The position numbers and the translations under genes were made by a program. A DNA stretch of 47,998 bases from IMG/VR virus record IMGVR_UViG_3300028284_000011, positions 1 through 47,998 of that record; one strand, written 5' to 3'. This document shows, one piece after another, positions 24,771 through 41,528 of the stretch (position 1 is the first letter of the stretch; each line of letters starts with the position of its first letter). Under the pieces are notes generated by a model. That model saw nothing but the letters and a program-made list of their open reading frames with translations. It was not told the DNA's origin and did no database searches. Origin of the DNA: a virus.

Positions 24771-24870
24771 AATTATTGTGTATAGCACAATACTTATATG
24801 TATGAATTATTCAATTTTTTATACAGATTAGTTACTGTATGTATAAAAAAGTCATAACTTTTAGCCTTTA

Positions 24871-24920
24871 GTAAACACATATGCTTACTTTTATTTAATA
24901 TTGTAAACGTATAAGCTTAC
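24871..24920. repeat. Two near-palindromes exactly 32 bp apart, downstream of nrdA
   Basis: GTAAACACATATGCTTAC (24871-24888) and GTAAACGTATAAGCTTAC (24903-24920) share 15 of 18 bases. The first is symmetric at 14 of 18 positions. Their starts are 32 bp apart, about three helical turns, so both would face the same side of the DNA. The second touches the nrdA stop codon. The stretch 24771-24919 between the operons holds no gene; besides these it carries one copy of the 10-mer TGCTATACAC (- strand, 24778-24787). Confidence 0.55.
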
Positions 24921-26641
24921 TATCCATCACAAGCTAAACAATCTTCATTCATTGCATTAGCTGCAATATCTCCACGTAAAACACTTTCAGTTCTAGTGTA
25001 ATATAAAGTTTTAATACCTTTTTTCCACGCATCAAAGTGAACTTTGTTTAACCATTTAGGCGTTGCTTCAGACGGAAAAGCTAGGTTTAAACTTACAGAT
25101 TGATCTACATATTGTTGTCTCAAGCCTGCTTGATTAACCAACTCTAATTGATTAATTTCTTTAAAGGTTCTAAAAACTTCTTTAGCAGGAATATCATGAT
25201 CTCCAATAAGAACATCATCAAGTTCTTCTACACCTTGTACAGACCCTCCGTCAGCTAATATTTTATTCCATATACTACTAACATTCAAGCTGTTATCTTC
25301 CAGCACTTGTTCCAATGTAGGATTTTTTCTTATAAAGGTTCCTTTTGCTGATTGCTCTGTAAAGACATTAGCAGCCCACGGTTCAATACCCGGTGAAACG
25401 TTACCAGACAATTTACTATTAGATACTGTAGGTGCAATAGCTCTAAGATGGGTATTACGCATACCAGTACCAACACACCAAAGAGGTTCACCATAAACCT
25501 CAGCAAGTGCTCTAGAAGCCCGTTCGCTTTCAATTTTAATTTGAGAAAATATTTTCCTAGTTTCAAACTGAGATAATAAACCCTCGAAAGGTATACCTTT
25601 TTCTTGGAGGTACGTGTGCCATCCGAGTACTCCCAAGCCCAATGCTCTCCCTTTTTGTGCAGAGCGAATTGCATTTTCGAATCCTCTAAGGCCTTTTGCG
25701 CGTTGAATAAATTCCTCCATAACTCCATCAAGAAACCAAATGGCGTCGTGTATAAGGTTAGTGTCTTTCCATTCTTCATATTTAGCTAAATTTAATGACG
25801 ATAAACAACATACAAAACTATGGTTCTCGTCTGTGTGTAATGTAATTTCAGAACATATGTTTGTCATATGTACTTTTAAACCATTTTCTTTATATGCTTG
25901 CGGGTTGTTTTTATTAACATTACCTTTAAACATTATATATGGTTCACCTGTTGCTTTTCTTTTTCTAAGTAGCTTACTCCATTTTGTTCTAGCTTCTTTA
26001 TCTCCTTGCTCTAGTCTTCTCATAAACTTATCACCAACAACTGCACATTGATGCAAATTAAGTGATTGTCTGTTTACATCGCCTTTAGGTTCTCTTATCT
26101 CGAGCCACTCTTCAAAGTCTTTATGCTCTATATTGATATTAACAGAAGCCGCTCCTCTTCTTACTGAGCCTTGATTAGTTGCGAGTATAGTTGAATCATA
26201 TATTTTACAAAAAGGTACAACTCCATCTGATGTTCCATTGCCTGTTATTCTAGCCCCAGCTGGTCTGATTTGATTGATACCAATACCAACGCCACCTCCA
26301 TGTTTTGCTAGAAGCATCATCTCTAGATTCTTTTGCCCAATGTCCTGTATGCTATCTGCTACATCAATACCGAAACAACTAATAGGCAAGCCACGGTCAG
26401 TACCAGTATTACTAAGTACAGGAGATGCCAAGCATAACCAACCATTCCAAATATAGTTGAAAAAAGTTTCAGCCATTTCAGGTCTATATAATCTATTAGC
26501 AACCGCTTTAGAGACCCTATGGTATGCTTCTCTAGGGTTTTCTCCGTGATATAAATATCCCCCGGATATTGTTTTCTTGTACACGTCCGTATCACCCCAC
26601 GCAGGGTAATCTTCTCCTTTAATCCATTCATTATTCCACAT
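24920..26641 (-). CDS. nrdA: Class I ribonucleotide reductase, large (alpha) subunit
   Basis: Reduces ribonucleoside diphosphates to deoxynucleotides with NrdB. 573 residues, so shorter than host enzymes; the N-terminal ATP-cone is absent, as in many phage enzymes. The radical-chemistry site is present: C89 in LPISCFG, N261-I-C263-S-E265, and the second redox cysteine in VCCLSSLNL (278/279). The C-terminus ends CLACDG, keeping the CxxC that passes electrons from thioredoxin or glutaredoxin. It is the last gene of the leftward operon and lies near nrdB with two small genes between. Confidence 0.93.
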   Translation of the reverse strand: MWNNEWIKGEDYPAWGDTDVYKKTISGGYLYHGENPREAYHRVSKAVANRLYRPEMAETFFNYIWNGWLCLASPVLSNTGTDRGLPISCFGIDVADSIQDIGQKNLEMMLLAKHGGGVGIGINQIRPAGARITGNGTSDGVVPFCKIYDSTILATNQGSVRRGAASVNINIEHKDFEEWLEIREPKGDVNRQSLNLHQCAVVGDKFMRRLEQGDKEARTKWSKLLRKRKATGEPYIMFKGNVNKNNPQAYKENGLKVHMTNICSEITLHTDENHSFVCCLSSLNLAKYEEWKDTNLIHDAIWFLDGVMEEFIQRAKGLRGFENAIRSAQKGRALGLGVLGWHTYLQEKGIPFEGLLSQFETRKIFSQIKIESERASRALAEVYGEPLWCVGTGMRNTHLRAIAPTVSNSKLSGNVSPGIEPWAANVFTEQSAKGTFIRKNPTLEQVLEDNSLNVSSIWNKILADGGSVQGVEELDDVLIGDHDIPAKEVFRTFKEINQLELVNQAGLRQQYVDQSVSLNLAFPSEATPKWLNKVHFDAWKKGIKTLYYTRTESVLRGDIAANAMNEDCLACDG

Positions 26642-26642
26642 A

Positions 26643-26906
26643 TTATATTAAGTGATTTATCCAGGCTATTAGCCCATTAATATTTAAAGCAACTAAGTTC
26701 CATTGTTTTCTTGATGCTGTTTGCACTACTACAAGTATAAAGCCTATTATGTATAGCTCAGGCTGTATGGTCCATTGAGCAGCGATTAAAAAACCGCTAC
26801 CCATATAACCTATTCTACTTGATAATCTTTCTGTCGGCGTTAACTTCTTCGCTCTCACCAGTTTCGTTAGCCAATTTTTCTTTGAGCTTTTCAATTGCTT
26901 CTTCAT
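26643..26906 (-). CDS. Small membrane protein in the RNR cluster
   Basis: 87 residues. A basic N-terminus is followed by two hydrophobic segments (about 36-64 and 72-87: IGYMGSGFLIAAQW, LYIIGFILVVVQT and LVALNINGLIAWI). It looks like a conserved phage inner-membrane protein of unknown role. The start is uncertain: from 26906 it overlaps the upstream gene by 92 bases in another frame, whereas the internal ATG at about 26804 would begin just after that gene's stop. nrdA starts two bases after its stop. Confidence 0.6.
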   Translation of the reverse strand: MKKQLKSSKKNWLTKLVRAKKLTPTERLSSRIGYMGSGFLIAAQWTIQPELYIIGFILVVVQTASRKQWNLVALNINGLIAWINHLI

Positions 26907-27054
26907 AGCTGTTCATTAATTTTACTGTTTCTAATGTTCCTACCGACAAGTCTTTTAGGTAAGCGTTTTCATCTAGTAACTGTTGAACCGCTCTAACTAA
27001 TGCTTCTATTTTTTTCTCTAACAGATCTGTTCTACTACTCTTCATTCCTTTCAT
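26815..27054 (-). CDS. Small charged coiled-coil protein between nrdA and nrdB
   Basis: 79 residues, no membrane segment. Residues about 10-65 are a Glu/Lys/Leu-rich helix with heptad character (LLEKKIEALVRAVQQLLDEN). It sits 35 bases after nrdB and overlaps the next small gene. An internal ATG three codons in is an alternative start. Function not recognised. Confidence 0.6.
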   Translation of the reverse strand: MKGMKSSRTDLLEKKIEALVRAVQQLLDENAYLKDLSVGTLETVKLMNSYEEAIEKLKEKLANETGESEEVNADRKIIK

Positions 27055-27089
27055 ATAATTGTTCTTCTATTTCTTTTGTTGTTATTATT

Positions 27090-28058
27090 TTACCAAATAT
27101 CTTCGAAGTCTTCTCCTTCGCCAGCTTTAGAATAATCTGTCGGCCTGATCGCGAAAAAATCAGTATGAGTAACCCCCCCGGTAAGATGATAGAACCAATC
27201 AAGGTTAGCCGCTGCCTTGTCGTCATAAGCAAAATAATTACCCAAGTCGACGTAACCCAATTCCACAAGTTTTTCATTTGTTCTTTTCTTTATAAAATGC
27301 TTTAAATCATTAGAAGATATACCTTCTATGTCTCCCATCTCAAACATCTTGTCAATATATTCCATTTCTAAAGCAACCATATCTTTAGCAGCGGTTATAA
27401 TATCTTCTCGACATAAATGCATTAACTGATTGTCTTCGTTACACATATCTCGGTACAGCTGACATCCCATTTTACTGTGAAGAGATTCATCTCGCACAGA
27501 CCATTTCATTTGTTGACCGATACCTTTTAATAAATTACGCATCTGAAAACTATATAACACAGCAAAAGCAGAGTACAAAGATACTCCTTCAGCAAAGGCG
27601 CTAAAAACAGCAAGAGACTTAGCAATGCCAATTTTAGAATCACCCTCATAAGCGACCAAATTTTCAAATCTTTTAGCCGTTGCAGGCTCGTGTAAAAACG
27701 CTTCATAATCTTCTAAACCTAAAGTTTCATTTAAATAACTATAAGCAACAGCATGTATTGTCTCTTGTGATCCAAACACCATTGCCATTTGCTGTATTTC
27801 GTGTTTTGGAAACCAACCAACAACCTTTTGTGTCCAATAATCTGAAACAGCGCATTCAGTTTGAGCAAAACCTAATAGTATATTACCTACTAAGTTTTTT
27901 TCTTTTTTATTCATTGTCTCGTTCCAGTCTTTAATATCGCTTTGCATCGATATTTCAGTGTGTAGCCAAAAAGCTTGAGCTTGTTTTAGCCAGCCTTCAG
28001 TGTAGTACTCCGGGTACTCAAAAGGCTTGTATGCAATTCTTTTATCAAATAATCCCAT
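27090..28058 (-). CDS. nrdB: Class I ribonucleotide reductase, small (beta) subunit
   Basis: Makes the radical used by NrdA. 322 residues. The di-metal ligands follow the class I spacing: E68, E99 and H102 (SQETIH), E157 (FAEGVS), E191 and H194 (RDESLH). The radical tyrosine is Y106, four residues after H102. E68 stands where E. coli NrdB has Asp84, with the correct 31-residue spacing to E99. The ATG at 28058 directly abuts the stop of the small gene before it. Confidence 0.92.
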   Translation of the reverse strand: MGLFDKRIAYKPFEYPEYYTEGWLKQAQAFWLHTEISMQSDIKDWNETMNKKEKNLVGNILLGFAQTECAVSDYWTQKVVGWFPKHEIQQMAMVFGSQETIHAVAYSYLNETLGLEDYEAFLHEPATAKRFENLVAYEGDSKIGIAKSLAVFSAFAEGVSLYSAFAVLYSFQMRNLLKGIGQQMKWSVRDESLHSKMGCQLYRDMCNEDNQLMHLCREDIITAAKDMVALEMEYIDKMFEMGDIEGISSNDLKHFIKKRTNEKLVELGYVDLGNYFAYDDKAAANLDWFYHLTGGVTHTDFFAIRPTDYSKAGEGEDFEDIW

Positions 28059-28229
28059 CTAATCTTGTATTATAAAGTTAATAGTTTGTAGTTCATTTTC
28101 CCAAGCACTTATATATGCAAGCAGCTGAACCTTTGTGTTCGACTTGTTTATAGTTTTCATGTCACTTAAAACATTATTTAAAAACAACTCAATAGTCTCA
28201 AATTTCATTTCTGATTCTTTATCTATCAT
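28059..28229 (-). CDS. 56-residue protein upstream of nrdB
   Basis: ATG at 28229 overlaps the TGA of the gene before (ATGA). The stop TAG at 28059-28061 directly precedes the nrdB ATG. The tight packing supports a real gene. It is helical and mixed in charge (MIDKESEMKFETIELFLNN, then AYISAWENELQTIN), without Cys motif or membrane helix. Function unknown. Confidence 0.65.
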   Translation of the reverse strand: MIDKESEMKFETIELFLNNVLSDMKTINKSNTKVQLLAYISAWENELQTINFIIQD

Positions 28230-28369
28230 TGGTCTAATTCTAAAACTAAATCAACAAAAGGTAAATATACAACATGCATTGTAACATCTGGCAATTCATA
28301 AGATCTAAATCCCAATAAAATACCAGGGTATAAGCCTATCGAAATAGACCATCCTTTATTTTTTTCCAT
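28226..28369 (-). CDS. 47-residue conserved phage protein
   Basis: ATG at 28369, TGA at 28226-28228, overlapping the next gene by four bases. The sequence WSISIGLYPGILLGFRSYE followed by HVVYLPFVDLVLEL is one I associate with small proteins seen beside nucleotide-metabolism genes in marine phages. It is moderately hydrophobic, perhaps membrane-bound. It overlaps the previous gene by 34 bases. Confidence 0.65.
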   Translation of the reverse strand: MEKNKGWSISIGLYPGILLGFRSYELPDVTMHVVYLPFVDLVLELDQ

Positions 28370-28554
28370 TTATTTCTTTGTTGTGCTTGGCAGTCTATAC
28401 CATAGCGGTTATGTAATTGTAATATATCAACATATCTGACCTTACCTTTATTATCCCAGCTCCATTTAACGAACTTGTCTATCTGACGTTCAGCGTATTT
28501 TTGCCGAGCTATCCCCTTCTTTTTTCCAGGATGATCCTTATTGTCTCGTCGCAT
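28336..28554 (-). CDS. Small basic hypothetical protein
   Basis: 72 residues, rich in Lys/Arg (MRRDNKDHPGKKKGIARQK) with conserved-looking aromatic positions (WSWDNKGKVRYVDILQLHN). Could bind nucleic acid. It overlaps the nuclease gene before it by 46 bases and the next gene by 34, the style of this operon. Function unknown. Confidence 0.55.
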   Translation of the reverse strand: MRRDNKDHPGKKKGIARQKYAERQIDKFVKWSWDNKGKVRYVDILQLHNRYGIDCQAQQRNKWKKIKDGLFR

Positions 28555-28967
28555 TCTTTCTGATTTTGTGGTTTATATAATGTTGTACCCGGAAACTGAC
28601 TGACTATCAGTCGTTTAAATAGTTTCCACCTCATAGGGAAAGATTCGTTAGCTCTTCCCTTAGTTTCTATTATGAAATCTTCACCAATAAAATCAGGAGT
28701 ATATTTTATAGGTAGTATTCTTTTACAACCTCTATTTTTATATTCCCCTTTGCCATTACCTTGTCTTTCATAAACTTCGTTATCAAAGTGAAAACCGCTT
28801 AATAAAACAAAAGTTTCACCTTCATACTTAGATTTTATATGAGCTTCTTTCAAAGCTTTGTACATATACTTCTCCAACCCAGAAGCAAAGTTGATACCGT
28901 CGTACGACACCTTCTTTGCAACAACAGGTCCTCTCTTTCCGCTTTTACGTTTGAATGGCTTACCCAT
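28509..28967 (-). CDS. PD-(D/E)XK-type nuclease
   Basis: 152 residues from the ATG at 28967, chosen because it overlaps the upstream stop by only eight bases; a longer frame begins at 29048. The basic N-terminus MGKPFKRKSGKRGP is followed by a conserved SGLEKYMYKALKEA helix. Next comes the catalytic pattern YTPDFIGEDFIIETKGR, i.e. Asp then Glu-Thr-Lys, as in Holliday-junction resolvase or phage endonuclease I-like enzymes. WKLFKRLI follows. Likely resolves branched DNA before packaging or degrades host DNA. Confidence 0.7.
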   Translation of the reverse strand: MGKPFKRKSGKRGPVVAKKVSYDGINFASGLEKYMYKALKEAHIKSKYEGETFVLLSGFHFDNEVYERQGNGKGEYKNRGCKRILPIKYTPDFIGEDFIIETKGRANESFPMRWKLFKRLIVSQFPGTTLYKPQNQKECDETIRIILEKRRG

Positions 28968-29211
28968 TTTTTTTAGAGTCTTTAAGAAGTTCTTCTTGCA
29001 TATCTTCAGTATAAGCCTCTTTTGCTTTCTGGAGGTATAAAACAGCATCCATAAGCTCTTCTTGCAAGTGATTCATCCAAGTAAACATATTAGATTTATC
29101 ATCTTCAAGCGTTACGCCGTATTTTTTAAAACCTACATCAGATCTACCTACGAATTTGTCTACTACTCTTTCAACAACAGGGTCTCTAAATTTAATTTCT
29201 TTACTATTCAT
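28960..29211 (-). CDS. Small MazG-like / all-alpha helical protein
   Basis: 83 residues. The middle reads KYGVTLEDD, then FTWMNHLQEELMDAVLYL, a helix with the EExxDA spacing reminiscent of all-alpha NTP pyrophosphohydrolases. The second helix motif of a full MazG is not evident, so it may be a degenerate or regulatory member. It overlaps the start of the nuclease gene and abuts the end of the larger MazG fusion (shared base 29211), suggesting a linked role in nucleotide handling. Confidence 0.5.
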   Translation of the reverse strand: MNSKEIKFRDPVVERVVDKFVGRSDVGFKKYGVTLEDDKSNMFTWMNHLQEELMDAVLYLQKAKEAYTEDMQEELLKDSKKNG

Positions 29212-29987
29212 TACAATGTTTCTTTAACAAATGTTCCATTAATCATTTTACCTTTACGCTTGCTAATTACATCATAAGCAGAGTATACACATTGTTCTAT
29301 ACTAACACCTCTTTGATGAGCTAAGTTAGTTAAAACAACTACCATATCTCCAATAGCATCAATAACCTCAGGTTGATCGTCTTTAAGTAATGCTTGAGCT
29401 AGTTCTCCAGCTTCTTCTTGTAGCTTAACATATTGAGTGATTGGATCCCCTTTAGCATATAATCCTCTTTCTTCAGCCCATGAACGAATCTTTTTGAATA
29501 TCTTTAATTCTTTATTCTTAGCAGCCTTAGGTTTTGTTTCAGGATTAATAAACATAGATAATGCTTTATTATATATATAACATCTCTCGTTGTTATACAT
29601 AGAAACCATTGCATTTTTAAGAATCCAATCTGTAGTATCTTTATTAATTTCAAAGTTACCTTCAGAGGTTTCCCACTTAAGACCTTTGTTATCCATTAAA
29701 TTTCCTTTTAGCTTCTTTAAAGGCATTGGAAACGTTGTTGTTTGGGTTGTTACATTTAATTTCATTTTGCTTGATTTATTGATTAAATTTTTATAAGATT
29801 GTCTATCTACTTTGTATCCAAACCTTTTTTGAAGCTCTAGCTCCATAGTAGATACTTTGCTGATATCGTCTGTTTTATATAAGACTTCATATTCATTTTC
29901 AGAGTATCCTTGCTGCTGTGTTACTCTTTTTTTTAAATTACGTGTTACCCCTATTTTCTTACCGGGTATGTGATAAATGCTATACAT
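29211..29987 (-). CDS. GIY-YIG-like domain fused to MazG nucleotide pyrophosphohydrolase
   Basis: 258 residues. The C-terminal domain (about 160-258) is MazG-like: EEAGE at 191-195, then E207, D210 and D214 in PEVIDAIGDM. It hydrolyses NTPs or dNTPs to monophosphates. The first 60 residues look like a GIY-YIG fold: YSIYHI at 2-7, KIGVTRNLKKR at 11-21 with a conserved-type Arg, and E49 in STMELELQ. A linker of about 100 residues joins them. It lies between thyA and the small MazG-like gene. Confidence 0.7.
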   Translation of the reverse strand: MYSIYHIPGKKIGVTRNLKKRVTQQQGYSENEYEVLYKTDDISKVSTMELELQKRFGYKVDRQSYKNLINKSSKMKLNVTTQTTTFPMPLKKLKGNLMDNKGLKWETSEGNFEINKDTTDWILKNAMVSMYNNERCYIYNKALSMFINPETKPKAAKNKELKIFKKIRSWAEERGLYAKGDPITQYVKLQEEAGELAQALLKDDQPEVIDAIGDMVVVLTNLAHQRGVSIEQCVYSAYDVISKRKGKMINGTFVKETL

Positions 29988-29996
29988 ATTTGTTAT

Positions 29997-31062: not shown

Positions 31063-32774
31063 TATTCCCAGGGCATTTTATCATTACTAATACTTAGGTT
31101 TTCATGCGGTATAAAACAACCTGATCTAGGATCCCATTTAAAATGAGCCTCTGCTCCATTCTCCCCTAAGTTCTGAAACTTAACCTTAAGAACTTTAGCT
31201 TTAACTGTTTTATTAGCGTAATCTCTGTGAACCAATATTCCATGATACGAAGCATCATACCATTCACCTCCACCTTTAATGTTGTACATAGTAGGTTCTT
31301 CAATTTTACCATCTTGTCCTTTGTACATTTTAGTAGGATGCGCAACTACGAATACCAGCACGTCATATTTCTTAGCGAAAGTTTCAATCTTAGTTAAGTA
31401 CTCCATAGTGTACCTATTAACATCCTCTGTTTTAGTTTCAGTATCTCTAACCTTATTGAATGGGTCAATAACTAAACATTTAATACCTTTACGCTTAACA
31501 AGCTCAGCTCCTTTCTTAAGTACTGATTCTAAAGTGTATCTCTCCATATCTATATGAAAGAAGTTGCTATTGCAATGATCGGCTATTTGATTCCATCTTT
31601 CAGAACCAATATCGTCTCTAGTTGGCATGCCTTGCCAAACCTTACGCATTAACTTATGAGCATGTAAATATGTCGGTGCATTCTCTGGCGAAGCAAACGC
31701 TGTTTTCCAACCATAGTTGTTATTATAACCAACAACCATCTGGTCGACAAAATCACTTTTCCCGGAAGACGGTATACCTGTGACAGTAATGAATTGACCA
31801 GTGTAAGTAGAAAAGATGTCATCAAAATTCGGCAAGCCAACCTGATATCCTTTCTTAAAGCCATTTTCAACAAAGTCAGTAATTTCGTTTTCAATGTCTC
31901 TGAATGTTGTGACATTTTCCAAAGGTACTGGTTTCGCGCCAGTGATTCTTTCAGTGAGTTTTTGTGTTCCATACTTTTGTAAGTATTCATTAGCATCTTT
32001 ACAGTCATCAAATGAAGCTATATAACATACTTCAGATCCTAGTCGCCTAACTAATTCAGTTTGTAAAGCAACTCCTGCTTCATCATCATCAACAGCTAAT
32101 ATTATACGATCTTTATCTTCAAAGTAATCTATACAAGAATCAAGATATTCTAAATTGTTACTATTTAAAGTAGCTCCATTAGGTACGGATATTGCATTTG
32201 TGATACCAGCTTCATGAAGTGCTAAAACATCCATTTCACCTTCTACAATAACACAATATTCAAATCCTATTATACTATCTATATTATAAAATACTTTTTC
32301 AGCACCTTTATATAGTTTAAAGTTTTTTCTACCATCTCTGTACTTTACATTGATTAGGTTATTACCCATGAAGTAGTTAAACTTAATAACGTTCTCGGTC
32401 TTACCGGTCTGCGGCATCCATTCAGGACCCTCAGTGACTTTTAAATCAGCAAGGGTCTGTTTGGAAATACCTCTTGTTTTAAACCAGTCTTCAACTTTTG
32501 TACCTACATCGTGTATAGCAACAGGGTTCTGAGGTCTTACATAAACCTTTTCACTCTCGCCCTTACGTTTGTAAGAATGCAATTGAAAACTAGAATTACA
32601 ATTGTGACAAGTACCTAGACCACGTTCCCAATCATAAGAAGCGCATTTAGCCTTCTGATTCTTAGGTTTTCTATCAGGGGAACAGTTAGGGCATATACCC
32701 TGCTTCTTTCCTTCTTCAAGCTTATGTTGATTGAATTCATCAATCAAAAATCCATTGATCTCTCTTGTCTGCAT
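31062..32774 (-). CDS. Primase-helicase (T7 gp4 / Twinkle type)
   Basis: 570 residues. The N-terminal zinc ribbon uses C28, C31, C56 and C59. The TOPRIM primase domain has VEGEMD (E178) and VDDDEAG (229-231). The C-terminal DnaB-type helicase has Walker A GIPSSGKS at 333-340 and Walker B CLVIDPFN, followed by VFVVAHPTK. It unwinds the replication fork and makes primers. The SSB-like, exonuclease and annealing genes stand just before it. No phage DNA polymerase is in the window, so it may load a host polymerase. One TGCTATACAC copy lies at 32511-32520. Confidence 0.92.
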   Translation of the reverse strand: MQTREINGFLIDEFNQHKLEEGKKQGICPNCSPDRKPKNQKAKCASYDWERGLGTCHNCNSSFQLHSYKRKGESEKVYVRPQNPVAIHDVGTKVEDWFKTRGISKQTLADLKVTEGPEWMPQTGKTENVIKFNYFMGNNLINVKYRDGRKNFKLYKGAEKVFYNIDSIIGFEYCVIVEGEMDVLALHEAGITNAISVPNGATLNSNNLEYLDSCIDYFEDKDRIILAVDDDEAGVALQTELVRRLGSEVCYIASFDDCKDANEYLQKYGTQKLTERITGAKPVPLENVTTFRDIENEITDFVENGFKKGYQVGLPNFDDIFSTYTGQFITVTGIPSSGKSDFVDQMVVGYNNNYGWKTAFASPENAPTYLHAHKLMRKVWQGMPTRDDIGSERWNQIADHCNSNFFHIDMERYTLESVLKKGAELVKRKGIKCLVIDPFNKVRDTETKTEDVNRYTMEYLTKIETFAKKYDVLVFVVAHPTKMYKGQDGKIEEPTMYNIKGGGEWYDASYHGILVHRDYANKTVKAKVLKVKFQNLGENGAEAHFKWDPRSGCFIPHENLSISNDKMPWE

Positions 32775-32796
32775 TTAATTGCGAAATTTAATTTAA

Positions 32797-33105: not shown

Positions 33106-33118
33106 AATTTAATTGGTT

Positions 33119-33850: not shown

Positions 33851-34362
33851 AATGTTTTTAGTACGTCTGGAGATATTTGGTACTTTGTTTTAATAGCTTC
33901 AACGCTTCCTCCTGACTTTATAAAGGCTTTAGCTTTTGTTAACGCAGCACCTTCTAGTTTAGGTTTAGATGCATCGTGTTTGTTTACTGCATCGCTATCT
34001 TGAGTATCATCAATTAAAAACAAGTTACCTAATGCATATTTTTTTCCATAACTGGAAGCACTACCAAACTTTTGTGGCATTTGCATACCTTTCTGAGCTA
34101 GATCAACGCCGACGATAGACGTAGCGTGTATAGCATCGGTACCATCTGTGATAGTTGCTTTAGATTCCATTATAGGAAAATCAGTTGTAGATATTAAAGA
34201 TTCATTAATAGTAACTGACACACCTAACTCTAGTAAGTAAGGCTTAGTAGCTTCTAGAATGTCTTCAGCAGATCGAAAGTTATACTTTCCGAATGCATTA
34301 AATCTACTCTTCTTCGATTTGAATTTTGTCTGGATTGTTGCCAGCTTTTCATTTAGTTTCAT
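33847..34362 (-). CDS. ERF-family single-strand annealing protein
   Basis: 171 residues. The ERF signature is visible: FGKYNFRSAEDILEA near the start, then GSASSYGKKYALGNLF followed by acidic DDTQDSDA. This family anneals complementary strands in phage recombination and repair. The C-terminal 40 residues look like a small helical partner-binding domain. The stop overlaps the exonuclease start. One TGCTATACAC copy lies at 34126-34135, coding AIH. Confidence 0.82.
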   Translation of the reverse strand: MKLNEKLATIQTKFKSKKSRFNAFGKYNFRSAEDILEATKPYLLELGVSVTINESLISTTDFPIMESKATITDGTDAIHATSIVGVDLAQKGMQMPQKFGSASSYGKKYALGNLFLIDDTQDSDAVNKHDASKPKLEGAALTKAKAFIKSGGSVEAIKTKYQISPDVLKTL

Positions 34363-34380
34363 TTATTATGGTTTATTGGT

Positions 34381-35130
34381 TTATAAATAGTCGATCACTT
34401 GATCGGGTTTAACGTTAGCTATAAGAGAGTCGATTGCTTCTTTCTTAATTTGTGATATTCTAACATTAGCGGTTGATACAGTTATTTTTAACTTATTAGC
34501 GACTTGCTTCGCTGTCATCTTATCACAGTCTAATCCAAATGATAAACGTAACACCTCATATTGCTGCTCATTTAAATATTCTCTCATTAGACCTAGTAAG
34601 TACGTGTTCAATAAAGCTATGTTATAAGGTTTAGAATCATCCTCTACTTGAAATATAGGATTCTCTTCATCATTATAGTACTCATCATAGCTTGTAAAAA
34701 TAGAGTTGAAAAATAAAGATACCATTTTGTCGTCCTCAGGATTCTTGCGTATTTCATTTAGTTTGTGTTCTGGTATCCTTACGTCACCTCTATTAACATC
34801 TATAGCTCTTCTTATTGAGCCTTTAATTCTTTTGCTTAAAAACGACTTCAAAGTTTTTTCAATGTCCTCAGAATCGTTTAAAGTCTCCCAGTTTAATCTA
34901 TCTACAGATCTTATTAATCCCATGCATCCCTCTTGTATCAAATCTGTTATATCTAATACTCCTGATGCTTGATCTGCTGTGGAAAACTTCCTAGCTAAAT
35001 TTTCTACTAGCGGCATGAATCTAACTATTAATTCATCTCTAGTATATTCTACATATTCTTTTTCTTCTGGCATAGATCGTTCAAGATCATCTTTGTACCG
35101 TATATAATTCTTTATATTATATTTTTTCAT
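34381..35130 (-). CDS. Phage sigma factor (sigma-70 family)
   Basis: 249 residues. Region 2 spans about 36-110: FMPLVENLARKFS, DLIQEGCMGLIRSVDRLN, SFLSKRIKGSIRRA. An acidic linker follows, then region 4 at about 185-235: YEVLRLSFGL, TAKQVANKLKITVSTANVRI, the -35-recognising helix-turn-helix. It should redirect host RNA polymerase to phage promoters. It overlaps the HTH gene upstream by four bases, so both come from the control element at 35740-35785. Confidence 0.88.
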   Translation of the reverse strand: MKKYNIKNYIRYKDDLERSMPEEKEYVEYTRDELIVRFMPLVENLARKFSTADQASGVLDITDLIQEGCMGLIRSVDRLNWETLNDSEDIEKTLKSFLSKRIKGSIRRAIDVNRGDVRIPEHKLNEIRKNPEDDKMVSLFFNSIFTSYDEYYNDEENPIFQVEDDSKPYNIALLNTYLLGLMREYLNEQQYEVLRLSFGLDCDKMTAKQVANKLKITVSTANVRISQIKKEAIDSLIANVKPDQVIDYL

Positions 35131-35747
35131 AATTGTTGATTAAGTAATTCCTTCTCTTTCTTAAGCTCATTACTCATATTTCTATATATGGTTCTTGTTG
35201 AACATTGTAATGAGTCTGCCAGCTTAGAAATAGTGATTTTTATATTATCATTATTTAACAGAAGCATAGCGTCATAAATTTCAGAGTCGGATATTCTTAG
35301 CCTACCAACCATACGGCCTACAATAGAAAGTTTCTGTCTCATAGTCAGTCCAGTGTAATCATTAAATATGATTTTACGAGACTTATTAGGAGGTGGAACC
35401 TCTAGATCCATGAGAGACACATCGTATGTCATGCCCTCAAGTAATTGCTCTGATACGGTAAATGTAACAAAACCATTTCTTTTTTCACATATATATTTAG
35501 AAAATTTATTAAATTTATCTTGATCGAACTGCGGATTTAAATACCACAGCACATATAAATGCCATTTTAAACTTTTATAAGTAGTAATTTTAGCTTTAGA
35601 ATTAAACAGTGTATAGCATTGGTGAGTGCCATTCTCGAAGTAACTACCCCATACATGCTCCTCTGTCGGTTTATCGCTGACAGGACCACGTCTGTAACAC
35701 ACTTGGTGCTTGTGTAGATACTCTATTCTTCGTTCAAATTGTGACAT
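35127..35747 (-). CDS. Helix-turn-helix regulatory protein
   Basis: 206 residues. The C-terminal ITISKLADSLQCSTRTIYRN (about 172-191) is a clear HTH. The N-terminal 130 residues, with several His/Trp/Tyr, are of unknown fold. The start codon lies inside one half of an inverted repeat (TGTGACATTAGC, 35740-35751), so its expression could be controlled at that site, possibly by itself. Co-translated with the sigma factor. One TGCTATACAC copy at 35609-35618. Confidence 0.72.
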   Translation of the reverse strand: MSQFERRIEYLHKHQVCYRRGPVSDKPTEEHVWGSYFENGTHQCYTLFNSKAKITTYKSLKWHLYVLWYLNPQFDQDKFNKFSKYICEKRNGFVTFTVSEQLLEGMTYDVSLMDLEVPPPNKSRKIIFNDYTGLTMRQKLSIVGRMVGRLRISDSEIYDAMLLLNNDNIKITISKLADSLQCSTRTIYRNMSNELKKEKELLNQQL

Positions 35748-36455: not shown

Positions 36456-36465
36456 AATCAAAGGT

Positions 36466-36948
36466 TTATAGGTTATTTATTGGTCTTAATATTATTTCTT
36501 CGTTGCTGTTTCTTACAGACTTTTTTTCTTGCTCGTAATAATTCCAGTATGCGGACACAGAATCGTTAGCAACTTTATACTCGTCAGGCATACACTGCGG
36601 AGGTTGGGTGAATGCGTCGCTGCTTATATTGGCAGGCAAGGTGTATAGCACTTCGCGGCATTTAGCAATAGTTAAGTGATGCTTGTTGTAGCGCTTTGTA
36701 TATTCCTGACCTAAAGCGATCATATGTTCGTATGCCCACATATAGTTTTCAGCAGATGCTCTAACCCATACCGCAGATGGGTGATTTTTATGAGTAGGTT
36801 TGTAAGGAACTATAGCTTTATCGCCATCTAATATATAATGCGCAGTACATAACAACTGAGCAGTCTCTAGGATCATCTTAACAACATGTTTATTATACTG
36901 GTATTCTGCTGCTTTTTGTGGACAATTTGATAGGTAAAATATATTCAT
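36466..36948 (-). CDS. Conserved phage protein, pyrimidine-dimer glycosylase-like
   Basis: 160 residues. Distinctive blocks: NKHVVKMILETAQLL, then HKNHPSAVWVRASAENYMWA and EYTKRYNKHH, PPQCMPDEYK. This family is frequent in phage early regions and looks distantly like T4 endonuclease V (pyrimidine-dimer DNA glycosylase), but catalytic identity cannot be shown here. Its ATG overlaps the stop of the gene before. A TGCTATACAC copy at 36641-36650 encodes LYT. Confidence 0.6.
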   Translation of the reverse strand: MNIFYLSNCPQKAAEYQYNKHVVKMILETAQLLCTAHYILDGDKAIVPYKPTHKNHPSAVWVRASAENYMWAYEHMIALGQEYTKRYNKHHLTIAKCREVLYTLPANISSDAFTQPPQCMPDEYKVANDSVSAYWNYYEQEKKSVRNSNEEIILRPINNL

Positions 36949-37127
36949 TATTTTTTATTAATTCTTAGTTTATATTTGCGTTCTCTGTAGCGTAAAGCTG
37001 TACGATCGTGGCCTCTGTTTTCAACAAAACCTGTTATTAGGTTTATAGGCTTGCCACTTCTTATTGCTTCATTCATTTGTTTACGTTGATGAGCTTTGAA
37101 CTCTGATAGTGTTAAGTTGTCTTCCAT
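36948..37127 (-). CDS. 59-residue basic phage protein
   Basis: ATG at 37127; TAA at 36948-36950 overlaps the next ATG. Sequence LSEFKAHQRKQMNEAIRSG, then NRGHDRTALRYRERKYKLRI: strongly basic second half, likely nucleic-acid binding. It starts one base after the stop of the GP88-like gene. No family recognised. Confidence 0.65.
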   Translation of the reverse strand: MEDNLTLSEFKAHQRKQMNEAIRSGKPINLITGFVENRGHDRTALRYRERKYKLRINKK

Positions 37128-37128
37128 A

Positions 37129-37734
37129 TTAATGCATTACTAAGCCTACTTTGTTATTGTTAGTGAACCACTTTGTAGCATGTAGGTCTATTTTGCTTGC
37201 GTTAGAGTAGTTTGCTGCTATTAAGTCAGATTCAGACTTGAAGATCTTGGTATGACGGTCGTGTATAGCATTTATTAAGTGTGATTGCTTGCCTGAGTCG
37301 CTGAAGATGACGTCGAAGTTATCAGGTAGATCAGCTTCTTTAAGCATTTTTACTGAGTTAGTATAACTATAAAACTTTACTTCAGGAAACAATAAAGCGA
37401 TGTCGATCCACTTATTTAGATATGCTTTGGAATAGTAATCACCGCTATCATGGACACGAACATAATCAGGTCGCTTTTTTGTTATCTCATTATACATAGC
37501 ACCTATGAACTCATCAGTCTTACTTAACTCATAACGTCTTTCAAATGCAGGTTTAACGTTGCTCCAGATATAAGCGCCTTTCTTTGCATAGCAGAATTTT
37601 ACGCAGTCACCAGCAAATGGGCATGTTATTTTACCTGATGCAGATTTATAAGCAGGTATGCCGAAGTTGAATACACGAACGCCTAAGGATTTAGATGTTT
37701 GTTTTAGTTTAGAGTTTTGTGTTAATAAGTTCAT
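37129..37734 (-). CDS. GP88-like phage protein
   Basis: 201 residues. Cysteines in CPFAGDCVKFCYAKKG, followed by VRVHDSGDYYSKAYLNKW and FYSYTNSV, match the phage GP88-type family. The Cys/His/Asp set suggests a metal site and possibly an enzyme, but its reaction is unknown to me. It is the first gene behind one of the 34-bp early promoters, so expected early. Contains TGCTATACAC at 37261-37270. Confidence 0.68.
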   Translation of the reverse strand: MNLLTQNSKLKQTSKSLGVRVFNFGIPAYKSASGKITCPFAGDCVKFCYAKKGAYIWSNVKPAFERRYELSKTDEFIGAMYNEITKKRPDYVRVHDSGDYYSKAYLNKWIDIALLFPEVKFYSYTNSVKMLKEADLPDNFDVIFSDSGKQSHLINAIHDRHTKIFKSESDLIAANYSNASKIDLHATKWFTNNNKVGLVMH

Positions 37735-37752
37735 AAGTATATTATTTAAGTT

Positions 37753-37786
37753 TATTATCGTGGGTGCTTCGTATTACGTTTGCAAA
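37753..37786 (-). promoter_or_regulatory. Early promoter-like element (before the GP88-like gene)
   Basis: Reads TTTGCAAACGTAATACG, ten bases, then GATAATA on the - strand, ending 18 bases before the ATG at 37734. Member of an eight-copy family with identical 34-bp length. Confidence 0.8.
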
Positions 37787-37879
37787 TTAATACCAGCCAA
37801 CTGTTATAAAGCACCATGCAAGGAATATGCCGGTTAGTATTAATACTATTAGCTGTGGGATTTTAGATTTATTCTGCAT
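37787..37879 (-). CDS. 30-residue membrane microprotein
   Basis: ATG at 37879, TAA at 37787-37789, just before the promoter element. MQNKSKIPQ is followed by one hydrophobic helix (LIVLILTGIFLAWCFITVGW). It overlaps the end of the gene before it by 11 bases. Length and position fit the other microproteins of this region; no sequence family recognised. Confidence 0.5.
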   Translation of the reverse strand: MQNKSKIPQLIVLILTGIFLAWCFITVGWY

Positions 37880-38222
37880 CTTCTTCGATATTGAATAACG
37901 CTTCGATTTCGTAAGATAATGACTCAGCTATTTCGTCTACGTTTTGGAATTCGATGCTGCTTAACTCAATTTGGTTATTGTAGCCTATTTCAAAATCATA
38001 ATCATAATCACTACCGTTGTTGAAATCGTAGTTGTCAAGTACGTGTTGTATAGTTTCTCGTAGTTCATTTACTGTTTCTTTAGTAATCATAGGTTTATTA
38101 ACGTTAGCTAAGGATCGTTGTGCAATTGTTAAATCATCTTTAAGGGTTTTAGCGTTTAATTCTACTGCATTTAGTGTTAATTCTAAATCTTGTACTCTTG
38201 TTTCTAGTTCTTGTTTCGTCAT
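37869..38222 (-). CDS. Hypothetical early protein, coiled coil plus acidic tail
   Basis: 117 residues from the ATG at 38222, one base after the upstream stop; an earlier ATG at 38249 would overlap that gene. The first 45 residues form a coiled coil (LETRVQDLELTLNAVELNAK), the rest is very acidic (YDYDFEIGY, IEEDAE). Acidic, DNA-mimic-like composition is worth noting, but function is unknown. Confidence 0.6.
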   Translation of the reverse strand: MTKQELETRVQDLELTLNAVELNAKTLKDDLTIAQRSLANVNKPMITKETVNELRETIQHVLDNYDFNNGSDYDYDFEIGYNNQIELSSIEFQNVDEIAESLSYEIEALFNIEEDAE

Positions 38223-38223
38223 T

Positions 38224-38460
38224 TTATTCGGATTTATTAGATTTTTCAATTATTGAAGACATATATTTATATACTTCGATTTCAGTTAGTGTTGATTTAT
38301 ATATTAGCTCTAGTTGTTCAAAGCTTATTGGGCCAGTTAATTCTTCTTTTAATTCGTAAGCTAAACGATCGCGATCGATCTCTAGCATAGCGAGCTTAGC
38401 GAATACTTTATTGCTTGCACGCTGGTGTATAGCATTATTCACTTTCTTCGAACATTTCAT
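38224..38460 (-). CDS. Hypothetical early helical protein
   Basis: 78 residues from ATG 38460, which overlaps the upstream gene by 26 bases; an in-frame start at 38529 would overlap it by far more. Sequence MKCSKKVNNAIHQRASNK and LEIDRDRLAYELKEEL indicates helical structure with mixed charge. The 10-mer TGCTATACAC (38425-38434) is inside it and directly abuts the upstream gene's stop. Function unknown. Confidence 0.55.
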   Translation of the reverse strand: MKCSKKVNNAIHQRASNKVFAKLAMLEIDRDRLAYELKEELTGPISFEQLELIYKSTLTEIEVYKYMSSIIEKSNKSE

Positions 38461-38644
38461 AGGGTGAATCTTTAATTCTTGCGTGATGTTCCATATCGAA
38501 TAGGACGCCGTAATTAACATCGCGTACATATAATTTAGAGCTTAGTTCTTTAGCTATATTTTCGGCAATGTTAGGATACAATACAGTAAGGGCATCTAAT
38601 TTGATTTTGTTTTCTGAAGTTAGTCGATCAATTAAGTATTTCAT
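38435..38644 (-). CDS. Hypothetical early protein
   Basis: 69 residues, mixed charge (MKYLIDRLTSENKIKLDA, then LFDMEHHARIKDSPYEMFEE). Its start overlaps the end of the DnaA-like gene by 17 bases. It has its own promoter-like element inside that gene (38672-38705), 27 bases upstream. No domain recognised. Confidence 0.6.
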   Translation of the reverse strand: MKYLIDRLTSENKIKLDALTVLYPNIAENIAKELSSKLYVRDVNYGVLFDMEHHARIKDSPYEMFEESE

Positions 38645-38951
38645 ATAGTTCTTTTTTTATTTGTTCATTAATATTATCTTCAGTGGTACGTATTACGTCT
38701 GCAATATTCATTTTTAATTTCAAGTACATAGCTCGATCAACGTGCATGAATATGTTATTTACACCGTGTACTACTGTTGAGTGATCTCTGTTGACTGTTG
38801 CGCCGATAGCACTGAAAGTGTGCTCTGTAAATTCGCGGCTTAACTGGTAGTATAATGCTCTGGCATCTGAATGCTCTCGGTCTCGTTTTTTAGATTTTAG
38901 ATCTACACCTGAGTGTATCTCTACTAGTTTTTTAATGTATCTTAAGTTCAT
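38628..38951 (-). CDS. Stand-alone DnaA domain IV-like DNA-binding protein
   Basis: 107 residues. LKSKKRDREHSDARALYYQL leads to NRDHSTVVHGVNNI at 54-67, which is the signature of DnaA domain IV (GRDHSTVLHA-type), the helix-turn-helix that binds DnaA boxes. The AAA+ ATPase part is absent. It could bind phage or host DnaA-box-like sites and act as replication initiator, repressor or competitor of host DnaA. The dispersed TGCTATACAC sites resemble a DnaA box. ATG is one base after the lipoprotein gene stop. Confidence 0.82.
   Translation of the reverse strand: MNLRYIKKLVEIHSGVDLKSKKRDREHSDARALYYQLSREFTEHTFSAIGATVNRDHSTVVHGVNNIFMHVDRAMYLKLKMNIADVIRTTEDNINEQIKKELYEILN
38672..38705 (-). promoter_or_regulatory. 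Early promoter-like element inside the DnaA-like gene
   Basis: ATTGCAGACGTAATACG, ten bases, then GATAATA on the - strand; same 34-bp length as the other copies although it lies in coding sequence (it encodes IADVIRTTEDN). It would drive the gene starting at 38644. Confidence 0.7.
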
Positions 38952-38952
38952 A

Positions 38953-39066
38953 TTAATATCTCCAAGCTTTAGTATTGTTTGATTTACCGCATCTATTATG
39001 AGTTCTAGTGATCGTGCAACTAGATAGGAATATAATTATAATGATAAAAGTTAGGTAACGTTTCAT
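38953..39066 (-). CDS. 37-residue predicted lipoprotein
   Basis: ATG at 39066, TAA at 38953-38955. MKRYLTFIIIIIFLSSC is a lipoprotein signal with lipobox LSSC (Cys17), leaving about 20 exported residues (TITRTHNRCGKSNNTKAW). Small phage lipoproteins often block superinfection or modify the cell envelope; that role is an inference here. A TGCTATACAC copy (39068-39077) lies just upstream of the ATG. Confidence 0.65.
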   Translation of the reverse strand: MKRYLTFIIIIIFLSSCTITRTHNRCGKSNNTKAWRY

Positions 39067-39078
39067 AGTGTATAGCAT

Positions 39079-39345
39079 TTAGTCAAGTTGGTATCCTGTG
39101 GATAGTACAGCTTTGTCGGTTAGTTTTTGTTTTTCAATTTGTTCTTCTACATTGTCTAGAAAGTAATCTATACTCGCTAGCATTTCTTCTTTATTTCTTG
39201 ATCCGAACGATGTTGTAGGGCTATGCTTTAGTAGGCTTTCGTCGCTGCATCTGTATCCGCTAGCTAATTGGTCATTATATGTTCGCCATTCAATATACTC
39301 GTATTTAACGCCTCTGTAATTAAAAGTGGTTTCAGGTATTTTCAT
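39079..39345 (-). CDS. Hypothetical early protein
   Basis: 88 residues. Beta-like first half (TTFNYRGVKYEYIEWRTYND), helical second half with acidic patches (EEMLASIDYFLDNVEEQIEK). No motif recognised. It lies seven bases after the gene before it. Confidence 0.6.
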   Translation of the reverse strand: MKIPETTFNYRGVKYEYIEWRTYNDQLASGYRCSDESLLKHSPTTSFGSRNKEEMLASIDYFLDNVEEQIEKQKLTDKAVLSTGYQLD

Positions 39346-39352
39346 AATAATT

Positions 39353-39658
39353 TTATTTTAATGTTGTTTGATCGTGGTATGCTTCTTTAAATTCATAAGT
39401 AATATCTTCCTCGAACTTCTTGAAAGAGTTTACGCCGTATAGTTTTTCGTATAGTTCTTTGAAGCCTTGGTATCTACAGTACTGATCGTTTATATAGTAT
39501 GCTATTTCGACATCGCTTATTTCGTGCTCATAAACTTTTTCACGATCCATAACGTTACTCCATACGGTTGCTTCTACTTTGAATAAACCTAAGTCTTTAG
39601 TGAATCCAGTGCTTAAACTGTAACTTTTGTCCTCGAATGTTTTAGTTATTTTACTCAT
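39353..39658 (-). CDS. Hypothetical early protein
   Basis: 101 residues, rich in Tyr/Glu/Lys (SKITKTFEDKSYSLSTGF, VEIAYYINDQYCRYQGF). Beta-rich start, helical end. No domain recognised. A 133-base noncoding gap with a tRNA-like element separates it from the gene upstream. Confidence 0.6.
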   Translation of the reverse strand: MSKITKTFEDKSYSLSTGFTKDLGLFKVEATVWSNVMDREKVYEHEISDVEIAYYINDQYCRYQGFKELYEKLYGVNSFKKFEEDITYEFKEAYHDQTTLK

Positions 39659-39679
39659 ATCATTTAATTTAATTAGTTA

Positions 39680-39787
39680 GTGACTAGTGAGGAATCGAAC
39701 CTCATACTCGTCAGTAGTAATGCCTCGTTAATTAGCTCGATGTCCCACGGTTACTGCTTCAAACGCACTGCATACCATACCTAGCCG
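39680..39787 (-). tRNA. tRNA-like element, atypical or degenerate
   Basis: On the - strand a canonical T-arm is present (TGAGG-TTCGATT-CCTCA, 39688-39704), followed by CTAGTCA plus C as a 3' acceptor strand. CGGCTAG about 100 bases upstream pairs with it at six of seven positions (one G-T wobble, end mismatch). Between them I find only a short D-arm-like hairpin with GGT in its loop. A seven-base loop GTTTGAA on an imperfect stem (possible UUG, Gln) and about 48 bases that fit no normal variable loop follow. It may be a degenerate tRNA, an interrupted tRNA or a tRNA mimic. Confidence 0.4.
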
Positions 39788-39791
39788 TTGT

Positions 39792-39965
39792 TTACTTGTT
39801 TAGTTGATCGTATATTTTACTTACTACTCGGTGCATAAGCTCAGTGTGTATAGCATTGTATTCGTCGCCGTCTAGTGACGCTTCGGCTAGTTGCCAGTCG
39901 CATGCACTGTGAATCTTAGGTGTCATTTCTTTAGCGATTCGGTTTACTTTAATTTGCATGTTCAT
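39792..39965 (-). CDS. Hypothetical early protein
   Basis: 57 residues from the ATG at 39965, one base after the upstream stop; a longer reading from 40019 would overlap that gene. Sequence MNMQIKVNRIAKEMTPKIHS, then AIHTELMHRVVSKIYDQL: helical, no motif. It contains TGCTATACAC at 39846-39855. Confidence 0.55.
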   Translation of the reverse strand: MNMQIKVNRIAKEMTPKIHSACDWQLAEASLDGDEYNAIHTELMHRVVSKIYDQLNK

Positions 39966-39966
39966 A

Positions 39967-40227
39967 TTATATACAGTTTTTTTGGTTAAATTCAAATAAC
40001 ATTTTGATACGATCTTCAAGGTTTTTAACTAACACTCGCTTGTAGTTGTAGTTGGTTGTATTCCACTCAGTAGGTTCGGCTACTTTGATTTTCTTGTTGA
40101 TCTGGTATAGTAGTTTACTTTGTGACTTAGTACTTACTCTTATGTATCCGGAAGGATATGCGACGCCTACTCGCTTGTCGCTTAATGTGAAGTAATAAGT
40201 GTCGTTGATTATTTTATTTAATTGCAT
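39967..40227 (-). CDS. Hypothetical early protein
   Basis: 86 residues, basic, beta-then-helix (YYFTLSDKRVGVAYPSGYIR, NYKRVLVKNLEDRIKMLFEF). It is the first gene after the promoter-like element at 40251-40284, 23 bases away. Function unknown. Confidence 0.6.
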   Translation of the reverse strand: MQLNKIINDTYYFTLSDKRVGVAYPSGYIRVSTKSQSKLLYQINKKIKVAEPTEWNTTNYNYKRVLVKNLEDRIKMLFEFNQKNCI

Positions 40228-40250
40228 AGTATTATTATTTAGTTCGTATA

Positions 40251-40284
40251 TATTATCTTAGGTGTGTCGTATTACGTTTGTAAA
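40251..40284 (-). promoter_or_regulatory. Early promoter-like element
   Basis: TTTACAAACGTAATACG, ten bases, GATAATA on the - strand; 23 bases before the ATG at 40227. Confidence 0.8.
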
Positions 40285-40288
40285 TCTA

Positions 40289-40597
40289 TTAAGAATATTC
40301 TTCGTTCGCAGAGTTAGCATCAAAGTATGCCCACATACACTTGTTTATAAATTCTTTAGTATCTACACTTGCTCTTTCAATAGGAAAGTTCCATACCATT
40401 TTCTCGTAGAATTGTGTTAAACCTTTATCGCGGCAACTCCATTGACTATCGAACGCAGTGTAATCATCACCTTGCATAAAGTTCAAACCTATTATTCTGT
40501 GTCTACAATTGTACTCTATATACATCCATCGATCGTGTTCTTCACTCCAAACATGTTCTACTTTAGTTACTCTATCTGTATCTTCTATGTTACTCAT
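40289..40597 (-). CDS. Hypothetical early protein rich in Trp/Cys
   Basis: 102 residues. Repeated aromatic residues (HVWSEEHDRWMYIEYNCRH, SQWSCRDKG, CMWAYFDAN) and three Cys suggest a compact, perhaps metal-binding fold. The ATG overlaps the stop of the 58-residue gene before it (ATGA). No family recognised. Confidence 0.6.
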   Translation of the reverse strand: MSNIEDTDRVTKVEHVWSEEHDRWMYIEYNCRHRIIGLNFMQGDDYTAFDSQWSCRDKGLTQFYEKMVWNFPIERASVDTKEFINKCMWAYFDANSANEEYS

Positions 40598-40770
40598 AAT
40601 ATTCTTTTTAGTTGTTCTTTAATTAATAGTATATCTTCGTCACTTACTTCAAAGTCGTAATCAATATCTCGTTCGCTTAAAATGTTCCACATAGCGTCGT
40701 GAAAGTTGTCGCCTACTATTTCATCTAAGCGATAAGCGATCTCTTTTATTTCATCACATGTTATCTTCAT
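40594..40770 (-). CDS. 58-residue acidic early protein
   Basis: ATG at 40770, TGA at 40594-40596 overlapping the next start. Strongly acidic and helical (MKITCDEIKEIAYRLDEIV, DIDYDFEVSDEDILL). Acidic early phage proteins can mimic DNA or inhibit host enzymes, but nothing specific points to that here. One base separates it from the zinc-binding microprotein upstream. Confidence 0.6.
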   Translation of the reverse strand: MKITCDEIKEIAYRLDEIVGDNFHDAMWNILSERDIDYDFEVSDEDILLIKEQLKRIL

Positions 40771-40771
40771 A

Positions 40772-40867
40772 CTATTCTTCTTCGTTAAATTCCGCCCACT
40801 CTAGGCAATCTCCACATCTTTCATCACTCAGGTAACTCGGTCCTGCACCGCAACAATTACTTATCAT
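40772..40867 (-). CDS. 31-residue Cys-rich microprotein
   Basis: ATG at 40867, TAG at 40772-40774. MISNCCGAGPSYLSDERCGD then C: CC...CxxC spacing fits a zinc knuckle. Very short phage proteins of this kind (starting with a CCGA-type motif) are familiar from other phages. It has its own promoter-like element 23 bases upstream. Confidence 0.6.
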   Translation of the reverse strand: MISNCCGAGPSYLSDERCGDCLEWAEFNEEE

Positions 40868-40890
40868 ATTCTTTATTTTTTATTCATTAT

Positions 40891-40924
40891 TATTATCTAC
40901 ACCGTATCGTATTACTTTTGCAAA
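40891..40924 (-). promoter_or_regulatory. Early promoter-like element
   Basis: TTTGCAAAAGTAATACG, ten bases, GATAATA on the - strand; 23 bases before the ATG at 40867. The first half overlaps the end of the 52-residue gene upstream, whose stop TAA is part of it. Confidence 0.82.
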
Positions 40925-41070
40925 TTTATTTTCTCTTTTAAATCCCACAATCTATAGTATCTAACTCTCACTTCGGGTTCTCTATCGTCTTGGTAGTCAT
41001 CATTTAATTGTTCCATTAATGTCTCTATAGATAGAGTAAGATCACTTATTTCTTGTTTACTGAATTGCAT
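40912..41070 (-). CDS. 52-residue early protein
   Basis: ATG at 41070, TAA at 40912-40914 inside the promoter element. Helical and charged (FSKQEISDLTLSIETLMEQL, REPEVRVRYYRLWDLKEKI). Function unknown. Upstream, 41071-41150 is noncoding and holds two copies of GGTATTACA and a TG-rich stretch. Confidence 0.55.
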   Translation of the reverse strand: MQFSKQEISDLTLSIETLMEQLNDDYQDDREPEVRVRYYRLWDLKEKINLQK

Positions 41071-41150
41071 AGTTTAAGGGGGTATTATTTGTTTATAGGG
41101 TAAAAAGGTATTACAGGTATTACACTGTGTCTGTGAGTGTGTGAGGTACT

Positions 41151-41330
41151 TTAAATCACACTAAATAGATCATTTGCTAGTTCTTCTTCAGTTTCGTCGC
41201 CTTCTATAGTACAGTTGATTTCTACAAAGTCTTTGATTTCTTGTTTTACTTCACTTTCACTAACGTAGGAAGACATGAATTTGAAGTGATCAATGGTTTC
41301 TTCATTCCAATAGAATTTTGAGGTTTTCAT
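41151..41330 (-). CDS. 59-residue acidic early protein
   Basis: ATG at 41330, TAA at 41151-41153. Acidic and helical (TSKFYWNEETIDHFKFMSSY, then EGDETEEELANDL). The promoter-like element at 41376-41409 lies 45 bases upstream. No domain recognised. Confidence 0.6.
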   Translation of the reverse strand: MKTSKFYWNEETIDHFKFMSSYVSESEVKQEIKDFVEINCTIEGDETEEELANDLFSVI

Positions 41331-41375
41331 AGTAGTAATATTTAGTTAGTTATTTATTTATTTTTCTTACATTAT

Positions 41376-41409
41376 TATTATCGTATGGTGGACGTATTAC
41401 TCTTGCAAA
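41376..41409 (-). promoter_or_regulatory. Early promoter-like element
   Basis: TTTGCAAGAGTAATACG, ten bases, GATAATA on the - strand; 45 bases before the ATG at 41330. Confidence 0.8.
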
Positions 41410-41444
41410 ATTTTTAATAGAATAATCACCTAAACTTAGTTATA

Positions 41445-41528
41445 TACCGAAAGTACCGAAAATGCTATACGCGTTGCTATACACACTACGTGGTAGTGGT
41501 ATTGTTTTTTTAAGCAGATGTACCGAAA
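41445..41528. other. Candidate replication origin or control locus
   Basis: Noncoding apart from the last bases. It has TACCGAAA at 41445-41452 and 41454-41461 and a third copy at 41521-41528 inside the next gene. TGCTATACGC (41463-41472) and TGCTATACAC (41475-41484) lie on the + strand, 12 bases apart. Next comes a hairpin CACTAC-GTG-GTAGTG (41482-41496). Iteron-like repeats beside DnaA-box-like sites at the place where the 10-mer changes strand is origin-like. Origin function is an inference. Confidence 0.45.

Follow-up and report, generated by a model that had tools for sequence, protein, structure and literature searches.

A strand-polar 10-bp word under DNA-level selection in marine Bacteroidota podovirus-like phages

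The 10-bp word TGCTATACAC recurs throughout a large clade of marine Bacteroidota podovirus-like phages (IMG/VR relatives), where selection targets the DNA word itself, with synonymous codons fixed while flanks and linker residues vary. The word is polar, evenly spaced along the early genes, arranged in tandem pairs beside early promoters and present in variants that differ between lineages. By analogy with operators and stoperators, its most likely reading, held tentatively, is a polar binding site that would halt RNA polymerase and mark the early promoters; we infer all three parts of this reading, namely the factor, RNA polymerase as its target and a role in early shut-off. Such a site would represent a layer of control spanning the genomes of an abundant marine phage group, invisible to gene annotation and strong enough to reshape coding sequence.

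Abundance of the word and selection on its DNA sequence

The window, the whole 47,998-base stretch analysed, is a partial genome of a podovirus-like phage. Its + strand encodes a terminase, a portal and a crAss-muzzle-like protein, while its - strand encodes RNR, thymidylate synthase, a primase-helicase, an exonuclease, ERF and a sigma factor (34381–35130). Nine degenerate 51-nt repeats encoding GNVGIGTTSP-like units lie in the tail-fibre region that closes the record (45094–47856, + strand). The nearest named relatives by portal protein are a Manatee Spring podovirus, Maribacter phage Panino, the elemo phages and Cellulophaga phage phi38:1. The closest of the named relatives by this protein, MW202828.1 (L301), carries at 43745–49889 at least 11 copies of the 16-bp sequence GTGTCGTTAACGACAC, a perfect palindrome, most of them at early-region gene boundaries.

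Of all 10-mers in the window, TGCTATACAC is the most frequent, with 10 copies on the - strand and one on the + strand for about 0.1 expected, and TGCTATACA is the top-count 9-mer. Allowing up to one mismatch, 15 matches were counted against 3.7 ± 1.9 (maximum 9) in 100 dinucleotide shuffles of the window, and a strand-specific order-4 Markov model predicts fewer than 0.05 copies on the copy-rich strand, where 10 are seen. The places and strands of the 11 exact copies and of a one-base variant at 41463, as given in the original prediction, were all verified.

Exact sequence matches on the - strand run through the early genes, occupying the variable linker of the primase-helicase gene (32511–32520), the ERF recombinase gene (34126–34135, read as AIH), a gene for an HTH protein (35609–35618, CYT), a pyrimidine-dimer-glycosylase-like gene (36641–36650, LYT), the GP88 gene (37261–37270, AIH), two small early genes (38425–38434 and 39846–39855, both AIH) and a short gap separating two early genes (39068–39077). 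The reading frame thus varies, as had been claimed, and so do the surroundings: the flanks are nearly information-free, with no strongly conserved column among 155 non-redundant single AC-type sites of the clade.

Codon usage confirms that the DNA is what is conserved. Among genomes carrying the motif, Ala-Ile-His is encoded as GCT-ATA-CAC in 47 of 63 tripeptides (7.5 expected), Val-Tyr-Ser as GTG-TAT-AGC in 28 of 65 (0.6 expected) and Cys-Tyr-Thr as TGC-TAT-ACA in 16 of 24 (2.1 expected), and Leu-Tyr-Thr uses the word-matching codons in 21 of 59 (3.0 expected). No comparable excess was seen in motif-free genomes, where the numbers are small. The check proposed beforehand, conservation at synonymous sites in related phages, therefore came out in favour of the word. 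It is kept in early genes even where the protein sequence must change: in the hypervariable primase linker it appears in varying frames and peptide contexts across relatives, and a GT-type genome carries TGCTATACGT in the same linker.

Across the fetched IMG/VR loci, redundancy included, the early strand carries 239 copies and the opposite strand 87. The 32 whole records, which were picked for carrying the word, mostly hold 5–12 copies each, the reversed pattern being almost absent. One 129.5-kb IMG/VR record (G010, L276-L282) apparently consists of two distinct but related phage genomes joined end to end, which may be a misassembly. The form of the word is constant within a genome: most use TGCTATACAC, one group uses TGCTATACGT(G), one group has only TGCTATAC, and some have none. 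The forms (AC, GTG, relaxed 8-mer or none) are lineage-specific.

Layout along the genome

With positions measured from the start of the primase gene, the word has a density of 3–5 copies per 10 kb across the early region, nearly all of them on the early strand. Most of the late region has about 0.15–0.6 copies per 10 kb, still several-fold above chance, with a much weaker enrichment on the sense strand of the late genes. In non-redundant counts, the early (-) genes hold 44 - versus 7 + copies and the + genes 22 - versus 6 + copies (16 versus 5 after a few small ORF calls within the early region were subtracted by hand). The word therefore tracks the genome strand and runs antisense to late genes, as at 12732–12741 of the window (an exact - strand copy within a late + gene), which excludes a plain transcript-sense rule. 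GC skew was discarded as an origin marker because it merely tracks gene strand.

Single copies, read with early transcription, stand about 1 kb apart along the early genes. Their spacing is more even than random (Fisher combination p 1.5e-10, a value that takes the genomes as more independent than they are, some being close relatives; p<0.001 for phi38:1 alone). Many genomes have a copy after the last early stop codon and ahead of the terminator hairpin, and in 20 of 71 at least one copy falls no more than 700 bp from the end of rnrA. The window copy at 24778–24787 (- strand) was originally described as reading away from the early genes; it is in fact on the early strand, 136 bp past rnrA, the last early gene, and directly precedes a hairpin and T-run resembling an intrinsic terminator (approximately 24739–24770, - strand).

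Many relatives carry an inverted copy in thyA, downstream of the primase, with exact GTG-TAT-AGC codons and conservation at the codon level. In the window its place is taken by TGCTATACAT, a one-base variant in inverted orientation where the MazG gene starts (29978–29987, + strand, found as a match with up to one mismatch). The MazG-like protein itself (29211–29987, - strand) has an N-terminal T5orf172 (GIY-YIG-like) domain and is conserved in the clade.

Intergenic cassettes at the start of the early region contain tandem pairs of the type GC-gt-AC with a 12-bp period, a value partly imposed by the search pattern, although the search came after the window pair at 41463 and the G026 pair had been noticed; close-pair spacing ranges from 9 to 14 bp. 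The window pair, TGCTATACGC-gt-TGCTATACAC (41463–41484, + strand), is followed immediately by a terminator-like hairpin (41484–41498, + strand) and then a T-run. Hairpins often follow intergenic copies (mean fold z -1.0 versus -0.4 after single sites). The tandem pairs sit just upstream of early promoters and point the opposite way. In 63 of 78 cassettes, the GATAAT of an early promoter-like repeat on the opposite strand is no more than 70 bp away. The repeat adjoining the window pair (41357–41412, - strand) is one of eight copies, the others beginning at 37734, 38653, 40232, 40872, 41982, 42375 and 42461. This 56-nt element consists of TTTGCAAAnGTAATACGA, about 9 nt and GATAATAATA, and its copies lie upstream of small early genes between 37734 and 42516 on the - strand; in many relatives its GATAATATA core is one of the most strongly enriched words. 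A host element was rejected, as the tandem form of the word occurs only at chance frequency in bacterial genomes (4 matches in 257 Gb).

The same layout is found with another word in cultured phages. Maribacter phage Panino carries CACTATCA with a strand split of 24:2, sense in early and antisense in late genes, its two inverted copies lying directly downstream of the primase. Cellulophaga phage phi38:1 carries it 15:1, again antisense in late genes, and its inverted copy (at 5309) lies downstream of the primase and polymerase genes. CACTATCA is absent from phi46:3, phi10:1, Gundel_1 and JQ. The earlier suggestion of a primase site is disfavoured by this pair, since the two phages share one word despite unlike primases, a TOPRIM primase-helicase in Panino and a prim-pol type in phi38:1. 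Because both phages are in culture, what reads the word is directly testable.

Possible functions of the word

The original prediction had proposed a recognition site. A polar site selected as DNA is upheld by conservation in the clade, synonymous sites, lineage variants and the isolates with another word, while two of the specific options named for it, a DnaA-like box and an extended -10 promoter, gain no support. In the reading we favour, with some reserve, TGCTATACAC would be the asymmetric site of a putative sequence-specific DNA-binding factor, more probably encoded by the phage than by the host, which would act on RNA polymerase in a polar fashion. The tandem copies beside early promoters would be candidate operators, and the single copies about 1 kb apart would be stoperator-like, halting or weakening early transcription in an early shut-off. 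The copy before the terminator would stop early transcription ahead of it, the late-region copies would stop early-direction read-through running antisense into late genes, and the inverted copies in thyA or mazG would stop late-direction read-through entering the early region. The much lower enrichment on the late-gene sense strand would spare late transcription. Like the operator words of heteroimmune phages, the word takes different forms in different lineages. Points against a polar block include the tandem copies, which point away from the adjoining promoter, and the far late copies, for which antisense read-through over tens of kilobases would be needed.

The closest parallel is offered by the operators and stoperators of cluster A mycobacteriophages such as L5 and Bxb1 (PMC6550527, PMC9283540), which are likewise asymmetric dispersed sites in one main orientation, densest in the early arm, with extra copies at the early promoter and words differing among relatives. 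Many dispersed asymmetric sites are co-oriented in the early arm here too. Cluster A stoperators follow transcription in both arms (PMC6550527), whereas the late copies here are mostly antisense; the present word is also 10 bp long, nearly invariant and mostly intragenic, compared with sites of 13–14 bp, its promoter tandem copies are inverted and the hosts are Bacteroidota. Cluster A systems also have a cognate monomeric HTH repressor and a lysogenic lifestyle; here no repressor, integrase or lysogeny module was found among the proteins scanned (part of the ORFs of an incomplete record). With late copies antisense and no repressor found, the word was not assigned to the stoperator systems. 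If a polar transcription block is correct, stoperator-type control reaches far beyond mycobacteriophages and beyond lysogeny.

A strand-polar signal of the Chi type is the simpler explanation of the strand rule, but it does not account for the promoter association or the early enrichment. The word would then be a polar replication, recombination or degradation signal on one genome strand, either Chi-like for host AddAB/RecBCD or reflecting fork or packaging polarity, which is possible though rather unlikely. Like Chi hotspots, it is a short, exact word without conserved flanks whose polarity tracks the genome strand and not gene direction. Its even spacing, the inverted copies adjoining the primase in three phage groups and the sharing of CACTATCA by Panino and phi38:1, which have related flavobacterial hosts, are consistent with such a signal, as is a virion tail module that tracks the motif-rich genomes and could reflect host range. 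The concentration in early genes, the tandem pairs hugging early promoters and the use of different forms by close relatives are all unlike Chi, and the chance-level tandem form in bacterial genomes and the other Cellulophaga phages lacking the word also count against it. In a broader version, of comparably doubtful standing, the word would belong to a genome-strand-polar signal new to phages: a lineage-specific short word, evenly spaced along one DNA strand throughout the genome, flipped in polarity beside the primase and promoter cassettes, with a putative translocating reader, in a design common to several Bacteroidota phage families with different words. A Chi-like role, if true, may reveal unknown Chi words of Bacteroidota.

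The remaining explanations are less probable. An RNA-level element in early-strand transcripts, either a processing site or an antitermination signal, would fit the early-sense bias and the hairpins after intergenic copies, but is improbable. The motif is no more open in RNA folds than control contexts (0.467 versus 0.488, p=0.30), and the unconserved flanks, the antisense late copies and the lack of any Rfam match speak against it as well. Phage T5 and phiKMV-like phages have single-strand interruption sites at a short word distributed on one strand. Similar nick sites, suggested here by a short exact word largely confined to one strand, are still less probable given the early concentration, the promoter-adjacent tandem copies on the other strand and the absence of any nickase found to track the word. 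An extended -10 promoter, one of the options first raised, is not supported, given the lack of a conserved -35 or other flank and the late copies that oppose gene direction.

Least probable of all, and very much so, is a phage DnaA-box system in which the 107-aa protein at 38628–38951 (- strand) would bind the word at an origin and at titration sites. The protein named in the original prediction does have a genuine DnaA domain-IV HTH (profile match to PF08299, E=7e-14), the word shares eight of nine positions with the box TTATNCACA (CTATACACA) and the tandem copies look iteron-like. Every copy nevertheless breaks the first base of the box, which is always C here, the CAC core is disrupted in the GC and GT variants, and close pairs are 9 to 14 bp apart. 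The domain occurs in only five of 50 relatives searched, many relatives without it carry the motif, and phi46:3 and Gundel_1 have the domain without any such word. The sites have neither the TTATNCACA consensus nor, in most of the relatives searched, a phage-borne DnaA-type reader alongside them, and the protein was rejected as a general reader.

Candidate reader proteins

Among the genomes compared, no gene tracks the word perfectly and the reader protein was not found; a literature text search for the word returned unrelated papers only. The recognition helix of a conserved 206-aa protein with a C-terminal HTH (35127–35747, - strand) fails to separate the motif types and was dismissed as their determinant. 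A small basic protein beside the cassettes (42824–43072) was set aside, as it is also found in the motif-free G034 and, weakly, in elemo.

The best early-gene correlate of the motif is a GP88-family protein (PF17338; 37129–37734, - strand). On a tree of four early proteins, GP88 against the AC form gives 19/5/3/39, and GP88 losses coincide with loss of the word (L024, L028), the switch to GT (L113) and the relaxed form (L109-L114). As the sole factor it was rejected, being missing from motif-rich and tandem-bearing near-full-length genomes and from Panino and phi38:1; tandem-bearing genomes without it suggest that GP88 may be linked cargo. The virion tail module splits motif-rich from motif-free genomes as well as GP88 does, so a host factor is also conceivable. 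A fold search with GP88 and the HTH protein gave no PDB match below E 1e-3. The GP88-family protein has a conserved Cys cluster, and its phage homologues are mostly from mycobacteriophages (107 of 118 records), some of them in the leftward right end characteristic of cluster A.
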